DNA from: Patescibacteria group bacterium
GTDB lineage: Bacteria > Patescibacteriota > Patescibacteriia > UBA2591 > UBA6264
Length of the DNA stretch: 39,255 nt
Reading direction: 5' to 3'
Assembly: GCA_016784145.1 (NCBI GenBank)
Contig: JADHVF010000002.1
Location: 73,102-112,356 of the forward strand
In this document: piece after piece, positions 21,966 to 33,301 of the stretch
Numbering within the stretch: position 1 is the stretch's first letter
Layout: each line of letters opens with the position of its first letter
The notes under the pieces: model-generated
Told to the model about the DNA's origin: nothing
The model's input: the letters and a program-made list of their open reading frames with translations, nothing else
The model's database searches: none
Made by a program: the position numbers and the translations under genes

Positions 21966-22718
21966 TTGAATAAAAAGATATTAAGTGTATCTTCTTTTTG
22001 TTAAATAACACTGCAAGAGGCAGGATTTATCTTGTCTTAAAACAATTTAACAAAAAAATAATTAAAGAGCAAAATTTACTTTGCTCGTTAATTAAGTGGT
22101 AAAATAGAGAACATATTGCATATGGTGGATGCCTTGGCACTAAAAGCCGATGAAGGACGTAGTAGCCTGCGATAAGCCTCGGGAAGGTGGCAAGCAACCT
22201 TTGATCCGGGGATTTCCGAATAGGGAAACCTATCATGGCATAAACCGTGATGTCTGTTTTTTAAAAGCAGACGGGAACCTGGCGAAGTGAAACATCTCAG
22301 TAGCCAGAGGAAAGGAAAAAAATTCTGTCTTTTGACAGAGATATTCTCTCAGTAGCGGCGAGCGAAAGGGGATTGTTTATTAGATTTAAGTTTACTTATG
22401 TTTAATAAACTCAGTCTAAACTCTATAGAATCTAAGGTGTTTAAAAGATTTGTCTTTGACATAATCTTTTACTCGCTAAAAGGTAACAGGGCCAAAATAT
22501 TTTATAGAGGGTAGCGGGGTAGTTAATGTTTTATCTCCTGCTAGATGAAGTTAAAATTATTATTTTTAATTGAATGGTTTGGAATATCCAACCACAGAGG
22601 GTGAAAGTCCCGTAAGTGAAAAAAATTTTGTTTTAATAGTTAATTATTCCCAAGTAGTGCTGGACACGTGAAACCCAGTACGAATCAAGGTGGACTATCA
22701 CCTAAGACTAAATACTTT

Positions 22719-22764
<46 letters not shown>

Positions 22765-24199
22765 GCCCGGTGAGGGCGATGAAAAGTACCTGAAACCATA
22801 TGCTTACAAAGAGTCAGAGCCTGTTATCTGTTTACAGATAATTGGGTGATGGCGTTCCTTTTGGAGAATGAGCCAACGAGTTTTTCTATTATGTTTGGTT
22901 AAGTTTAAACATAAACGAAGCCGTAGCGAAAGCAAGTATTAATAGTGCGATTTTATATAATGGAAAAGACCCGAAACTGTGTGATCTATCCATGGGCAGG
23001 GTGAACTTCAAAGAAATTTGAAGGGAGGCCCGAACCGGTTGGTCGTGTAATGCCATCGGATGACCTGTGGATAGGGGTAAAAAGCCAATCGAACACAGTA
23101 ATAGCTGGTTCTCCCCGAAATAGCTTTAGGGCTAGCCTGTCTCAATTTGTTTTGGGGGTAGAGCACTGAATGGGTAAGGGTGGAGAAATCCTACCTTATT
23201 CAACCAAACTCCGAATACCAAAATTATTTATAGGCAGAGTCAGACCATGGGGGCAAAGCTCCATTGGTCGAAAGGGAAACAGCCCAGACCTCAATCTAAG
23301 GTCCCTAAATCCAAATTAAGTGTTAAAGGTGGTGAAATGACTTTGACAATCAGGAGGTTGGCTTAGAAGCAGCCATCCTTTAAAGAAAGCGTAACAGCTC
23401 ACTGGTTAAGTTATTCTGCGCTTAAAATGTATCGGGGCTCAAATTTGGTACCGAAGATGAGGAGCGTAAACTTTTGTTTGCGTTGGTAGGGGAGCATTCT
23501 CTAGGCATTGAAGTCAAATCGTAAGGTTTGATGGAGCGTAGAGAAGAGAAAATGTTGGCATGAGTAGTAAAAAGTTCGGTGAGAATCCGAACCACCGTAA
23601 GTCCAAGGTTTCCTGGGCGCTGATTGTCATCCCAGGGTTAGGCGGTCCTAAGCTTTTGCCCGAAAGGGTGGAGCGATGGACAGGCGGTTAATATTCCGCC
23701 CCCTTAATATTTTTTCTGATGGAGTGACGCTTCTTCTCGCTTAGAGCGTAATCTGGCTATTTGCGTCTAAGTAATGAATGGGCTCTTTAGGTAAATCCGA
23801 AGAGTAAAAGTTTGTTATGAGTGAAATCCTCGTAAGGGGAAATTCTAGGGTCGAGGGAGCCAAGAAAAACTTCTAAGAATTTAAAAAATATTAAGTCCGT
23901 ACCGTAAACCAACACAGGTGGACGAGGAGAGTATCCTAAGGTGTACGAGAGAACCCTTGTTAAGGAATTCGGCAAAAAAGCGGGTGTAACTTCGGGATAA
24001 ACCCTGCCCTACTTTTGGTAGGGCCGCAGCGAAAGTCTGTCGAGCGACTGTTTATCAAAAACACAGGTCCCTGCTTAAACCGTAAGGTGATGTATAGGGG
24101 CTGACTCCTGGCCAGTGTCAGAACGTTAAGAGGATTTGTGATACTAATTTATTAGTTGAGCATTGAATTGAAGCGCTGATGAACGCCGGCGATAACTAT

Positions 24200-25009
24200 A
24201 AACTGGACGGTTGTAGTTATCTAAATAAATTTGGCTATTTGCGGGAAAACCCTGTTAAATATTAAAGGTACTCGGCTTTGTAATAATAAAAGGTCGAAGC
24301 CAGTAAAAATCCTTTAATTAGTCCTCATTGTCGTGAGGCACAGGACAATCCGCAGGAAAGACTCTCAAAAATATGAACAACAGAGAAAAATGGTTGAAAA
24401 ACATACCATTAAAAGTTGGCTATTATTTAGCTGGCTTTGCAGATGGAGAAGGAAGTTTTAACGTTTCTTTGAGAAAAAGAGAAGACCATACAATTGGTTG
24501 GCAAGTAGTGTTAACCTTTAATGTTTCTCAAAAAGAAAGTTATATTCTTTCTCAATTCAAGAAAATTCTTGGATGTGGTAGATTAAATCAACGCAAAAAA
24601 GATGGCTTGTTTATGTATTCTGTAAGCAACCCAACATCTATTGAAGAAAAGGTGATTCCTTTTTTCAAAAGATTTAACTTTCTCTCTCAAACAAAGAAGA
24701 AAAATTTTTTCATTTTTTGTCAGATTGCTAAACTAGTGCTCAACAAAGAGCATTTAACAACCAAAGGGTTAAAGCAAATTGTGGCATTAAGAGAAAAATT
24801 AAACAAAGGAAGAGGGAGAACGCACAAGTATAATCAAAACAATGTTTTGGTTTCTCTAAGAGAGAATCCTCAGAGACTATACGCCAAACCGCGCGCATTT
24901 CGAAAGAAAGCGTAAGCGGATGATATAGTCCGATCTCTATGGAGACATAGAGCCCTTAAATTAATAAGGGAGGTCCATTGACAATTTAGTTAAATGGATT
25001 AACATCATG
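24200..25009 (+). other. Group I self-splicing intron in helix 69 of 23S rRNA
   Basis: The 810-nt insertion follows the T equivalent to E. coli U1917. P1: the 5' exon end GATAACTAT pairs with the guide GTAGTTATC (24213-24221), giving the required U-G pair at the splice site. P10: intron GGACGGTT (24205-24212) pairs with the 3' exon AATCGTCC (25010-25017) with one wobble. The intron ends in G (25009). Core elements are a Q-like AATCCGCAGG (~24346), R CAGAGACTAT (24871-24880) and S GATATAGTCC (24922-24931), whose GACTAT and ATAGTC form P7. The exons then rejoin into an intact H69: GGCGA, loop TAACTATAA, TCGTC. Confidence 0.93.
24373..24915 (+). CDS. LAGLIDADG homing endonuclease, intron-encoded
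   Basis: A 180-aa DNA endonuclease expected to cut intronless 23S genes at the insertion site and so spread the intron. It has a single LAGLIDADG motif (YYLAGFADGEG, residues ~17-27), so it should act as a homodimer like other single-motif enzymes of this length. The ATG follows the Q-like core element by ~17 nt. The C-terminal codons run through core element R, and the stop lies between R and S, so RNA structure and protein sequence constrain each other. The frame is intact, which suggests recent activity. Its C-terminus (RENPQRLYAKPRAFRKKA) may simply be what the ribozyme core allows. Confidence 0.92.
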   Translation: MNNREKWLKNIPLKVGYYLAGFADGEGSFNVSLRKREDHTIGWQVVLTFNVSQKESYILSQFKKILGCGRLNQRKKDGLFMYSVSNPTSIEEKVIPFFKRFNFLSQTKKKNFFIFCQIAKLVLNKEHLTTKGLKQIVALREKLNKGRGRTHKYNQNNVLVSLRENPQRLYAKPRAFRKKA

Positions 25010-25013
25010 AATC

Positions 25014-25045
<32 letters not shown>

Positions 25046-26032
25046 TTTCCGACCTGCACGAACGGAGTAACGACTTGACAACTGTCTCAACAAGGGACTC
25101 GACGAAATTGCAGTGGGCGTGAAGATGCGCTCTATTTACGATAAGACGAAAAGACCCCGTGAAGCTTTACTGTAACTTGATATTGGAATAGGAATACACC
25201 TGTTCAGTAATAGGTGGGAGCTTTGCACTTTTGTGCAAAGCATCAGTGAGATACCACCCTTGTATATTTTTATTTCTAATCCCGATTTATTCGGGAGACA
25301 GTATCTGGCTGGCAGTTTATCTGGGGCGGATGCCTCATAAAGAGTAACTGAGGCGCTTAAAGGTTAACTTGGCACGGATGGAAATCGTGCTGGACGTACA
25401 AAGGCATAAGTTAGCTTGACGGCAAGACCTACAAGTCGAGCCGAGAGGAAACTCGAACTTAGTGAACCGACACTTGCTTATAGGAGCGGTGGAGATCAAC
25501 GGATAAAAGCTACTCCGGGGATAACAGGCTGGTTTCGCTTAAGAGTTCATATCGACGGCGAAGTTCGGCACCTCGATGTCGGCTTATCCTATCCTGGGGG
25601 TGAAGAAGCTCCCAAGGGTTTGGCTGTTCGCCAATTAAAAGGGTACGCGAGCTGGGTTCAGAACGTTGTAAAACAGTTCGGCCTCCTATCTATCGTAAAC
25701 GTTCGAAACTTGAGGGGTCCCTTTGATAGTACGAGAGGACCTCAAAGGACAAACCTCTGGTGCACCAGTTGTTCTGCCAAGGGCATTGCTGGGTAGCTAT
25801 GTTTGGTTTTGATAAACGCTGAAAGCATATAAGCGTGAAGCTGTCCCCAAGATTAGGTTTCGTTTTATTTAATTTTTTAAATAATGAAGATCCCCGGGAG
25901 ATGACCGGGTATATAGGCTCTAAGTGTAAGTCCAGTAATGGATTCAGCTGAGGAGTACTAATAAATCAAATCTCTATTTTACCACTTAGCTAACGAGCAT
26001 TTTTTGTATCTTTATATGATATAATAAACTCA

Positions 26033-30887: not shown

Positions 30888-31310
30888 ATGATTGTTTATG
30901 TTTTTGGTAACCTTGATTTAGATTTTGATTCAATTCCTTGTTCAATCTTGCCGAGGTTGAAAGAAAAATTCCCTAAGATAGAGTGGCGAACAAAAGATCC
31001 AAATGAATTAGATGTTTATGCAAACGATTCGTTGATTATCATTGATACTGTAAAAGGAATTAACAAAGTTGATGTTATTGACGCTACTGATATATCAGTT
31101 AATAAAAAGATGATTACGGTTCATGATTTTGACTTATCTTTTTATCTAAAATTGATTAAAAAAATTAAAAAAAATATTGGTATTTATATTATTGGAATAC
31201 CAATGTTTTATAATAAAGACAAAGCAATAACTGAAGTATCTATTTTCTTGTCAGATTTAATTTTAAAAAATGAGAAGCACAACTCATACAAGGATCATAA
31301 GCTCTTATGA
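30888..31310 (+). CDS. [NiFe]-hydrogenase C-terminal maturation protease
   Basis: A nickel-dependent endopeptidase (HycI/HyaD/HybD-like) that removes the C-terminal tail of the hydrogenase large subunit after nickel insertion. The 140-aa protein starts VYVFGNLDLDFDSIP, in place of the usual GNxxxxDDG, giving acidic residues D12/D14. D53 in LIIIDTVKG and H79 in ITVHDFDL complete the expected metal-binding set, and IYIIGIPM matches the family's IGIQP. Its 3' end overlaps the 3' end of the hydrogenase large-subunit gene by 71 nt on the opposite strand. The divergent N-terminal motif lowers certainty, but the location strongly supports the call. Confidence 0.8.
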   Translation: MIVYVFGNLDLDFDSIPCSILPRLKEKFPKIEWRTKDPNELDVYANDSLIIIDTVKGINKVDVIDATDISVNKKMITVHDFDLSFYLKLIKKIKKNIGIYIIGIPMFYNKDKAITEVSIFLSDLILKNEKHNSYKDHKLL

Positions 31311-32535
31311 TTTTTTCACATTGAAGCGATAATTGTGCCTGGTCCATGTCTATATTGTTTTGAATAAATTCAGCAATATCAAGTTCAATTGATAATTGAT
31401 TTTGTCCGGTAGGAACAATTACTTCGCCTTTTTTAATTATGCCTTGATTATCTATTTCTAATTTATGGTAAAGAGTTCCTCTAGGGGCTTCAATCACGCC
31501 AATGCCAATAGATTTTTTAATTTTTAGTTTAGTTGGTTCTTCGGGTTTGAATTTAAAATTATTAAGTAAATCAATTGATTCATCAATAGAGTGTAGTATT
31601 TCAATAGCTTGGGCAAGATTATTATGATAAATATTATTTGAAGGAAAACTTTTAAGTGCAGATGTTGCACTTTTTTTTGTTTTATCATGTAATGCTTGTT
31701 GATTGATATTTATTCTAGCTAAAGCACCGACTTGATAAGGTTTTCCTTTGAAGGTATAGGCAGATGCTTGTGAATATGGCAGGACAACATGTTCAAAATG
31801 TTGACGAAAATCTTTTTCTTCAGCAATTAATTTGTTTTGATTATAAAGTTGCCCTTCAAGATATGAGAATGGATTTGCCTTTAAGCAAACATAATCTGTT
31901 TTTCTGATTAGATTGAATTTTGAATTTTTATAAATATTTATCAATCTTAATACAGCTGGTCGAGCTTGTTCAAGTTTTTCTATTATATTTTGTTTTTTTT
32001 CTTCAGCTGGCGTTTTAAGAAATCCACCTACTACTGGATAGGGAGAGTGAACGCTTCGGCCGGCTGTAAAAATTGATAAATTGTTTCCAGCTGATTTTAC
32101 TTTAAAAGTATCATGTAAAAATTGATGTTCTCGTTGATTGTTTTCATCAAAATCTAATAAAGAATCTTTATTAAATAAATCAGGCAAGACAAAAACATAT
32201 AAATGTAAAGCATGGTCACGAATAATTAATCCATGATAGGCCAATTTTCTTAAAACCATTGTTTGAATTGATGGCTTAAAATCACAGGCCTTTTCAATTG
32301 CTTCAATAGAAGCCATTAAATGAGCGTTGCTACAAGTTCCGCAGATACGGGCTAGCATTTGTGGCACAGCCAAAGCTGATTTTCCTTGAATTGCTTGAGT
32401 GTAAAATCTTTTAAAATCTTTTATCTTGAATTTGACATATTTTACTTTTGATTTGACAACCTTAACTTCAAGCTCAGCCGAGCCCTCGACTTTGGTGATT
32501 TCTTTTATGTTTAATTTAAAATCAGATTGATGCAT
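31240..32535 (-). CDS. [NiFe]-hydrogenase large subunit, group 3-like
   Basis: The catalytic subunit that activates H2 or reduces protons, expected in the cytoplasm (no signal peptide). The 431-aa protein has both nickel-ligand motifs: RICGTC (C65, C68, then N-A-H) and DPCMSC (C416, C419). It ends nine residues after H422; this tail (FLKLNLTRK) is the probable target of the adjacent protease. GRSVHSPYPVVGGFLKTP and EAPRGTLYHKLEID are typical of cytoplasmic group 3 (sulfhydrogenase/F420-type) alpha subunits. All four cysteines are present, so this is not a degenerate complex I-type subunit. The small subunit is encoded just upstream. Confidence 0.92.
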   Translation of the reverse strand: MHQSDFKLNIKEITKVEGSAELEVKVVKSKVKYVKFKIKDFKRFYTQAIQGKSALAVPQMLARICGTCSNAHLMASIEAIEKACDFKPSIQTMVLRKLAYHGLIIRDHALHLYVFVLPDLFNKDSLLDFDENNQREHQFLHDTFKVKSAGNNLSIFTAGRSVHSPYPVVGGFLKTPAEEKKQNIIEKLEQARPAVLRLINIYKNSKFNLIRKTDYVCLKANPFSYLEGQLYNQNKLIAEEKDFRQHFEHVVLPYSQASAYTFKGKPYQVGALARININQQALHDKTKKSATSALKSFPSNNIYHNNLAQAIEILHSIDESIDLLNNFKFKPEEPTKLKIKKSIGIGVIEAPRGTLYHKLEIDNQGIIKKGEVIVPTGQNQLSIELDIAEFIQNNIDMDQAQLSLQCEKIIRAYDPCMSCASHFLKLNLTRK

Positions 32536-32540
32536 GAGAT

Positions 32541-32624
32541 TGATTATTGATTAGTGATTAGTGATTATTGATTAGTGATTATTGATTAGTGATTAGTTAT
32601 TAATGATTAGTGATTAATGATTAT
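32541..32624. repeat. Twelve tandem heptamers between hydrogenase subunit genes
   Basis: Twelve uninterrupted 7-bp units in phase: TGATTAG or TGATTAT in ten copies, plus TGATTAA and TTATTAA. The array fills the spacer between the small- and large-subunit genes and includes the small-subunit stop codon. On the coding strand the unit contains TAA, and since 7 is not a multiple of 3 the array closes all reading frames. Confidence 0.95.
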
Positions 32625-33106
32625 TTAATTTTGAAATGTTTTAACATTTTGTTTACTATTAATAAAAATTTTGCTTCATCCATTGGACAACCAGGAACTT
32701 GTTCGTCAATTTTTATAACTTGTGCTAATTTTTTAACTTTCTGACCATAATGAAATTTTTTTATTAAAAAATCAATTTCAGATTGAACTTGTTTAGGGAA
32801 TTCATTTCTATGAGCAGAAGGCATTGATGTGATAGCACAAGAACCAATAGCCACTACTTGCTTGGCATTAGCTCTGATTTTTTTAACTTGTTTAGCTTGA
32901 CTTAAAGAAGAAATCGCCCCTTCAATAAAGGCGACATCAAGATTGTCTAATTTGTTATTGCTTTTTAATATTTTAACATGGTAAAAATCTATAACTTTTG
33001 TCCATTCATCCCAATAATCGTTTAAAAGCTCTGTAAAAACAATGGTACTGTCTTCACAACAAGTAAAACTGAACCAGCCAATTCTTAATTTTTTTTGTTT
33101 TGCCAT
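32621..33106 (-). CDS. [NiFe]-hydrogenase small subunit with tandem cysteines
   Basis: The electron-transfer subunit of the hydrogenase, 161 aa from the ATG at 33106; a longer frame to 33160 runs into tRNA-Leu and is rejected. It matches the Oxidored_q6 (hydrogenase small/NuoB) fold with cysteines C16-C17 (FSFTCCEDST), C90 (AIGSCAITS) and C140 (VPGCPMDE). Usual hydrogenase delta subunits have CxxC at the first site; here the second cysteine is replaced by serine and two cysteines are adjacent, as in complex I NuoB. There is no C-terminal ferredoxin domain, so only one proximal [4Fe-4S] cluster is expected. It starts 14 nt after a tRNA-Leu. Confidence 0.88.
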   Translation of the reverse strand: MAKQKKLRIGWFSFTCCEDSTIVFTELLNDYWDEWTKVIDFYHVKILKSNNKLDNLDVAFIEGAISSLSQAKQVKKIRANAKQVVAIGSCAITSMPSAHRNEFPKQVQSEIDFLIKKFHYGQKVKKLAQVIKIDEQVPGCPMDEAKFLLIVNKMLKHFKIK

Positions 33107-33120
33107 AAATATATTTAAAA

Positions 33121-33203
33121 TGCCCCTGAGAGGACTCGAACCTCTAAGGCCAAAAGCCAACAGGTCCTAAACCTGTCGTGTATACCAATTCCACCACAGG
33201 GGC
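33121..33203 (-). tRNA. tRNA-Leu (anticodon UAG)
   Basis: Acceptor GCCCCTG/CAGGGGC, anticodon stem CAGGT/ACCTG with loop TTTAGGA, a long class II variable arm, T-loop TTCGAGT and discriminator A. CCA is not encoded. The hydrogenase small-subunit start is 14 nt downstream. Confidence 0.95.
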
Positions 33204-33218
33204 TGTAAAAAATAATAA

Positions 33219-33301
33219 TACCGGGAGTGGGATTCGAACCCACAAGGGCTTGCGCCCAAGAGATTTTAAGTCTCTCGTGTATACCGTTCCACCATCCCGG
33301 C
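33219..33301 (-). tRNA. tRNA-Leu (anticodon UAA)
   Basis: Acceptor GCCGGGA/TCCCGGT (one G-U), anticodon stem AGAGA/TCTCT with loop CTTAAAA, a long variable arm GGGCGCAAGCCC, T-loop TTCGAAT and discriminator A. CCA is not encoded. It begins 4 nt after the SIMPL-protein stop and lies 15 nt from tRNA-Leu(UAG). Confidence 0.95.

Follow-up and report, generated by a model that had tools for sequence, protein, structure and literature searches.

A predicted minimal [NiFe] hydrogenase of CPR and DPANN genomes with adjacent, complex I-like cluster cysteines and few HypDEF maturation genes

The [NiFe] hydrogenase genes in a 39,255-nucleotide stretch of a Patescibacteria contig (JADHVF010000002.1; hereafter the window) raise a question about how the iron-sulfur cluster beside a nickel site may be held. 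The small subunit carries two adjacent cysteines, and the initial annotation proposed that it forms, with its large subunit, a catalytically complete hydrogenase whose proximal cluster resembles that of NuoB. We ask here whether this arrangement is peculiar to one gene or shared by a family, to which family the protein belongs, and whether the enzyme is likely to be active. The features concerned are collected in Table 1. The genome comprises 585 kb in four contigs, is ~96% complete, and contains one PF01058 match. Elsewhere in the window, the 23S rRNA gene (22102-25981) spans 3880 bases versus 2925 in its model and probably contains an intron; an ORF inside it (24373-24915) resembles, by eye, a LAGLIDADG homing endonuclease.

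Table 1. Features of the hydrogenase locus, in window coordinates.
Feature	Position	Strand	Evidence and remarks
[NiFe] hydrogenase small subunit, short, 161 aa, one predicted Fe-S cluster	32621..33106	-	PF01058; pLDDT 94.9; group-3 folds
TGT TGT codons of adjacent C16 and C17	33056..33061	-	sequence; C16 in 88/88, C17 in 82/88
C90 codon, predicted third cluster ligand	32837..32839	-	invariant, n=88
C140 codon, predicted fourth cluster ligand	32687..32689	-	invariant, n=88
Heptamer tandem repeat, ~12 copies, consensus TGATTAG	32541..32623	.	TRF; separates small and large subunit genes
[NiFe] hydrogenase large subunit, 431 aa; Ni ligands C65, C68, C416, C419; tail C-terminal to DPCMSCASH	31240..32535	-	PF00374; group-3b alpha PDB matches
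Probable HycI-family maturation protease (HycI-like)	30888..31310	+	convergent with large-subunit gene, overlaps its 3' end; homologue at 71/80 loci

The translated small subunit contains C16-C17 (in TCCEDST), C90 (in GSCA) and C140 (in PGCP), and no fifth cysteine that could restore a normal CxxC. We prefer the start at ATG 33106, because the TTG start listed for a longer version of this ORF falls within a tRNA gene; two tRNA genes (33121-33301), read in the same direction, lie immediately 5' of the small subunit. When the protein is aligned with the delta subunit of Pyrococcus furiosus soluble hydrogenase I (SHI), whose motif is TSCYGCQ, C17 falls on the first cysteine of the usual CxxC and Ser20 on the second, while C16 is an extra cysteine immediately before the first, as the initial annotation had noted. 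The adjacent pair in the ‘SCC’ of E. coli NuoB falls on C16-C17. Thus, the likeness to NuoB (Nqo6; complex I, cluster N2) consists of two adjacent cysteines at an identical alignment position, and the view that such a pair marks NuoB agrees with published work: complex I has adjacent cysteines (Nqo6 C45-C46), whereas MBH and the cytosolic hydrogenases have a CxxC, with cysteines two apart (PMC7684303).

The small subunit is nonetheless ruled out as a member of the NuoB family. It scores 17.3 bits against nuoB_fam, for which the cut-off is 142.7, and the folds closest to its model, which was built without cofactors, are those of group-3 small subunits (SHI delta, 7t2r and HoxY, with TM scores of 0.73-0.83), NuoB being a weaker match at ~0.60. 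Since the predicted fold is that of a group-3 small subunit, the NuoB-like arrangement of cysteines is probably the product of convergence. The partners differ as well: NuoD of complex I is free of nickel cysteines, whereas the large subunit of the window keeps all four.

The closest characterised relatives lie in group 3b. The top PDB sequence matches of the small subunit are P. furiosus SHI subunits, and SHI (group 3b; 9nez, 9e15, 9e1j) is among the best matches of both subunits; the top NCBIfam match of the small subunit is sulfhyd_HydD, well under its cut-off. A group 3b enzyme, however, would be expected to have a proximal CxxC in a delta subunit of ~250 aa that carries two further clusters. 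The SHI delta subunit is ~260 aa long and has TSCYGC, whereas the subunit studied here has TCCEDS, lacks the C-terminal two-cluster domain, and stops after the C140 helix.

The large subunit, by its sequence, looks catalytic. Both group 3b nickel motifs are present, as RICGTC (L1, RxCGxC) and DPCMSC (L2, DPCxxC). In the PDB it comes closest to alpha subunits of group 3b, including that of SHI (E ~1e-56), and its top NCBIfam match is the sulfhydrogenase alpha family, far under the equivalog cut-off. Residues E17, C65, C68, H72, R352, D414, C416 and C419 are identical in all 81 large subunits of the clade described below. Loss of nickel ligands is therefore ruled out, and the retention of the four nickel cysteines by the partner subunit, as originally described, extends to the whole sample.

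Relatives were gathered by a pattern scan with one genome per species, which returned 196, and the best 80 of these were used. The patterns were derived from the clade itself and one of the two contains the CC pair, so that the count of relatives is biased towards the clade. Apart from unclassified bins and one Thaumarchaeota label, the records of these best 80 of 196 are labelled CPR or DPANN. The CCED pattern noted in the initial annotation recurs in most of them: an alignment of 88 small subunits from CPR and DPANN has 21 invariant columns, among them C16, E18, D19, C90 and C140, while position 17 is cysteine in 82 and serine in 6. Small subunits 49-59% identical to that of the window occur in 7 of 58 related genomes; all have [ST]CCEDST and are comparably short. 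The CC arrangement is thus a trait of the clade (hyd2, below) and not a peculiarity of the window gene. The six serine-bearing members imply that the CC pair is not strictly required and that four-cysteine ligation is not universal. According to the large-subunit tree, this substitution arose at least twice: L098 (handles of this kind denote loci of relatives) has a CC member as its sister, and L041, L074 and L086 group with CC members. An extra cysteine at position 92 is found in 30 of the 88 members and is absent from the window protein. In the same tree L034, the contig labelled Thaumarchaeota, clusters with Diapherotrites, possibly through misbinning.

Some relatives depart from the motif in ways consistent with the ligand pair having moved along by one residue in steps, whose order we infer. 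Long relatives have either TSCEGC or, in L011, L016 and L022, TCCEGC, in which the extra cysteine and the CxxC occur together; the short relative L010 has TCDEGC. The large-subunit tree sets the clade apart from the long type of CPR (support 100/99). A long-branched large-subunit clade beside CPR group 3b, combined with a truncated small subunit, matches the published description of hyd2, in which the small subunit averages 164 aa, beta and gamma subunits are not linked, and the function is uncertain (Jaffe et al. 2020, PMC7304191). The likeness includes the range across CPR, the truncated small subunit, a large and a small subunit without linked beta or gamma genes, and the presence nearby of hypC-like and PF07992 genes. 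The main text of that paper is silent on the cysteine shift, the missing HypDEF, and the EamA/DUF6390 and HydE/HydG neighbours, and the clade as sampled here reaches DPANN archaea too, unlike the published CPR hyd2 (PMC7304191). Nor did the shift turn up elsewhere in the open-licence papers that we searched. We are dealing, then, with a known but uncharacterised clade whose members share the cysteine trait.

What kind of enzyme would this be? The reading that best accounts for the motif, its conservation, the gene content, the phylogeny and the predicted fold is that the two genes encode a minimal [NiFe] hydrogenase that belongs to hyd2 of CPR/DPANN and descends from group 3b; it would have two subunits, a single cluster in the small one, a slid ligand pair and non-standard maturation. 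We assign this reading a probability of about 0.6; from these observations we infer the cluster type, the ligation by C17, the direction of catalysis, the partners and the maturation route. The small subunit would have lost its C-terminal ferredoxin-like domain, and it should therefore hold one [4Fe-4S] cluster, adjoining the NiFe site and held by C16, C17, C90 and C140. A new cysteine would have appeared just ahead of the usual first one (TSCxGC to TCCxGC), and the second cysteine of the CxxC would then have been lost to give TCCEDS, arriving at the NuoB arrangement by convergence. The likeliest direction would be the release of H2, which would dispose of reductant from fermentation. Assembly of the cofactor probably departs from the standard route as well, since most genomes of the clade are without HypD, HypE and HypF and have HypC-domain proteins, EamA and a HycI-like protease.

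With no further clusters available, electrons would pass between the sole cluster and a docking partner, either a ferredoxin or a flavoprotein. Reading the ORFs of the window by eye, we found no beta or gamma (NADPH-flavin) genes; a PF10418 match is absent from the genome, in which no electron partner was identified. Elsewhere in the clade, the small subunit is fused to a TrxR-like flavoprotein (L043, L056, L069, L071) or to an FNR-type flavoprotein (L029), 29 of the 80 loci include a ferredoxin homologue, and genes resembling 2-oxoacid:ferredoxin oxidoreductase were identified by eye close to 10 loci. The flavoprotein fusions hint at the electron partner, and either a flavoprotein or a ferredoxin may exchange electrons with the single cluster without an intermediary.

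The role of C17 admits a different account, in which the cluster is held by C16, C90 and C140, C17 is spare or exchangeable, and one iron site stays open, the situation in the P. furiosus MBS complex; with such a site, the cluster itself could reduce polysulfide. The name sulfhydrogenase is in use for group 3b enzymes, and in the clade C16, C90 and C140 are invariant while C17 can be replaced by serine. The proximal cluster of MBS, held by only three cysteines, does reduce polysulfide (PMC7684303). MBS also shares with the window enzyme an altered cysteine loop at the proximal cluster and a common superfamily. However, both the three-cysteine ligation and the loss of two nickel cysteines are features of MBS (PMC7684303), whereas the large subunits of the clade keep four nickel ligands and the great majority of small subunits (82 of 88) retain C17. 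We therefore regard ligation by three cysteines as unlikely, and continue with the four-cysteine, two-subunit hydrogenase.

The neighbouring genes bear on how such an enzyme may be matured. The large subunit is followed at 71 of 80 loci by a convergently oriented gene of the protease family. Within this family, 24 of 30 members match PF01750 (the window member has E 0.0012, below cut-off), and D14, D53 and H79 are invariant; we take these, by eye, to match the metal-site residues of HybD. The profile of the family has no PDB relative by sequence.

The Hyp proteins present a different picture. A [NiFe] hydrogenase matured by HypABCDEF would have HypD, HypE and HypF in its genome, yet HypA, C, D, E, F and DUF6390 were not found in this genome (96% complete), and an EamA homologue was not found either, in a search without a positive control. 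Two flanking stretches gave no homologue of the HypC-domain proteins or of HydG. Since none of these proteins was found, the window copy may be matured in some other way or not at all. The claim of a catalytically complete hydrogenase with a NuoB-like cluster thus holds for the catalytic residues and the adjacent cysteines, and its completeness is uncertain. The failure to find the genes may reflect an assembly gap, divergence, or real loss. In the clade at large, HypD was found in 3 of 58 genomes and not in the other 55; HypE and HypF exceed their cut-offs only in those same three, among 57 genomes searched, and in two of the three HypDEF sits within the hydrogenase locus. HypC was found in many genomes of the clade. 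Among those without HypD is the genome of L078 (CP011210.1), a complete chromosome according to the title of its record. At L028, the nearest to the window in the large-subunit tree, HypC and EamA adjoin the protease.

Such absences could also mean that the protein does not work on H2 in this organism: without Hyp proteins the NiFe site would be empty or hold another metal, and the protein would do some other redox job or be in decay. The failure to find HypA, C, D, E and F in this genome and the scarcity of HypD in the clade speak for this account. Against it, the catalytic residues and the protease family are retained over very diverse genomes, genomes without HypD usually have HypC-domain proteins together with EamA, and three clade genomes possess the full HypDEF, two of them within the hydrogenase locus. 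On balance we think it improbable. As for an ordinary group 3b small subunit altered at its motif by a chance mutation or a sequencing error, the affinity to group 3b notwithstanding, CC recurs in 82 of 88 relatives whose genomes were assembled independently, which refutes it and leaves it practically no weight.

If the two-subunit hydrogenase is active, other proteins may stand in for HypD, HypE and HypF. At 52 of 80 loci, never with HypD, the gene of an EamA transporter accompanies one for a HypC-domain protein, which is DUF6390 in some cases and a shorter form in others; nearly always the two genes lie end to end. We observed EamA beside a HypC-domain protein near the hydrogenases of L078 (13436-15035) and of 50 more loci. 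Among 50 genomes in which HypD was sought, the EamA module is present at the locus in none of the three HypD-positive genomes and in 37 of the 47 HypD-negative ones (Fisher p 0.015, uncorrected for shared ancestry and with a HypD-positive sample of three). The shorter HypC-domain family matches HypC structures with E 1e-9, and DUF6390 does so weakly (E 0.055); a Foldseek search with the DUF6390 model returned nothing at E <= 0.001, only OB-fold ribosomal matches and one weak HypC match.

A second gene set involves HydE and HydG, which are maturases of [FeFe] hydrogenases. In two loci of the long type, L136 (6881-9560) and L132 (7387-10078), a fusion of HypC with a HydE-like radical-SAM protein, followed by HydG, lies inside the [NiFe] hydrogenase operon. 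Their HydE and HydG exceed the NCBIfam equivalog cut-offs; searches of their genomes gave no HypD or HypE and, for HypF, weak matches only. Two loci of the short type, L067 and L106, also have homologues of HydE and HydG close to the hydrogenase. At the 80 loci, HydE/HydG is never combined with the EamA module. A search of open-licence papers returned nothing relevant on DUF6390, on HydG with HypC, or on the loss of Hyp proteins in CPR, which is weak evidence of absence. We offer tentatively, at somewhat less than even odds, the broader proposal that this is a real [NiFe] hydrogenase clade with complex I-like cluster cysteines, whose cofactor is made without HypD, HypE or HypF by two undescribed routes: one through EamA and a HypC-domain protein, in most lineages, and another through HydE and HydG feeding HypC, in a few.

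If our reading is right, adjacent cluster cysteines would no longer be confined to complex I, having arisen also where the nickel site is kept. Such a nickel-bearing enzyme would allow a test, free of quinone chemistry, of whether and how the CC pair acts on cluster potential and coupling. The clade extends over a large part of CPR and DPANN, groups whose energy metabolism is little understood. More surprising than the cysteine motif is the lack of HypDEF, together with what look like substitutes for it: if the enzyme is active, these genomes would contain natural substitutes for the HypDEF pathway, which is supposedly essential.
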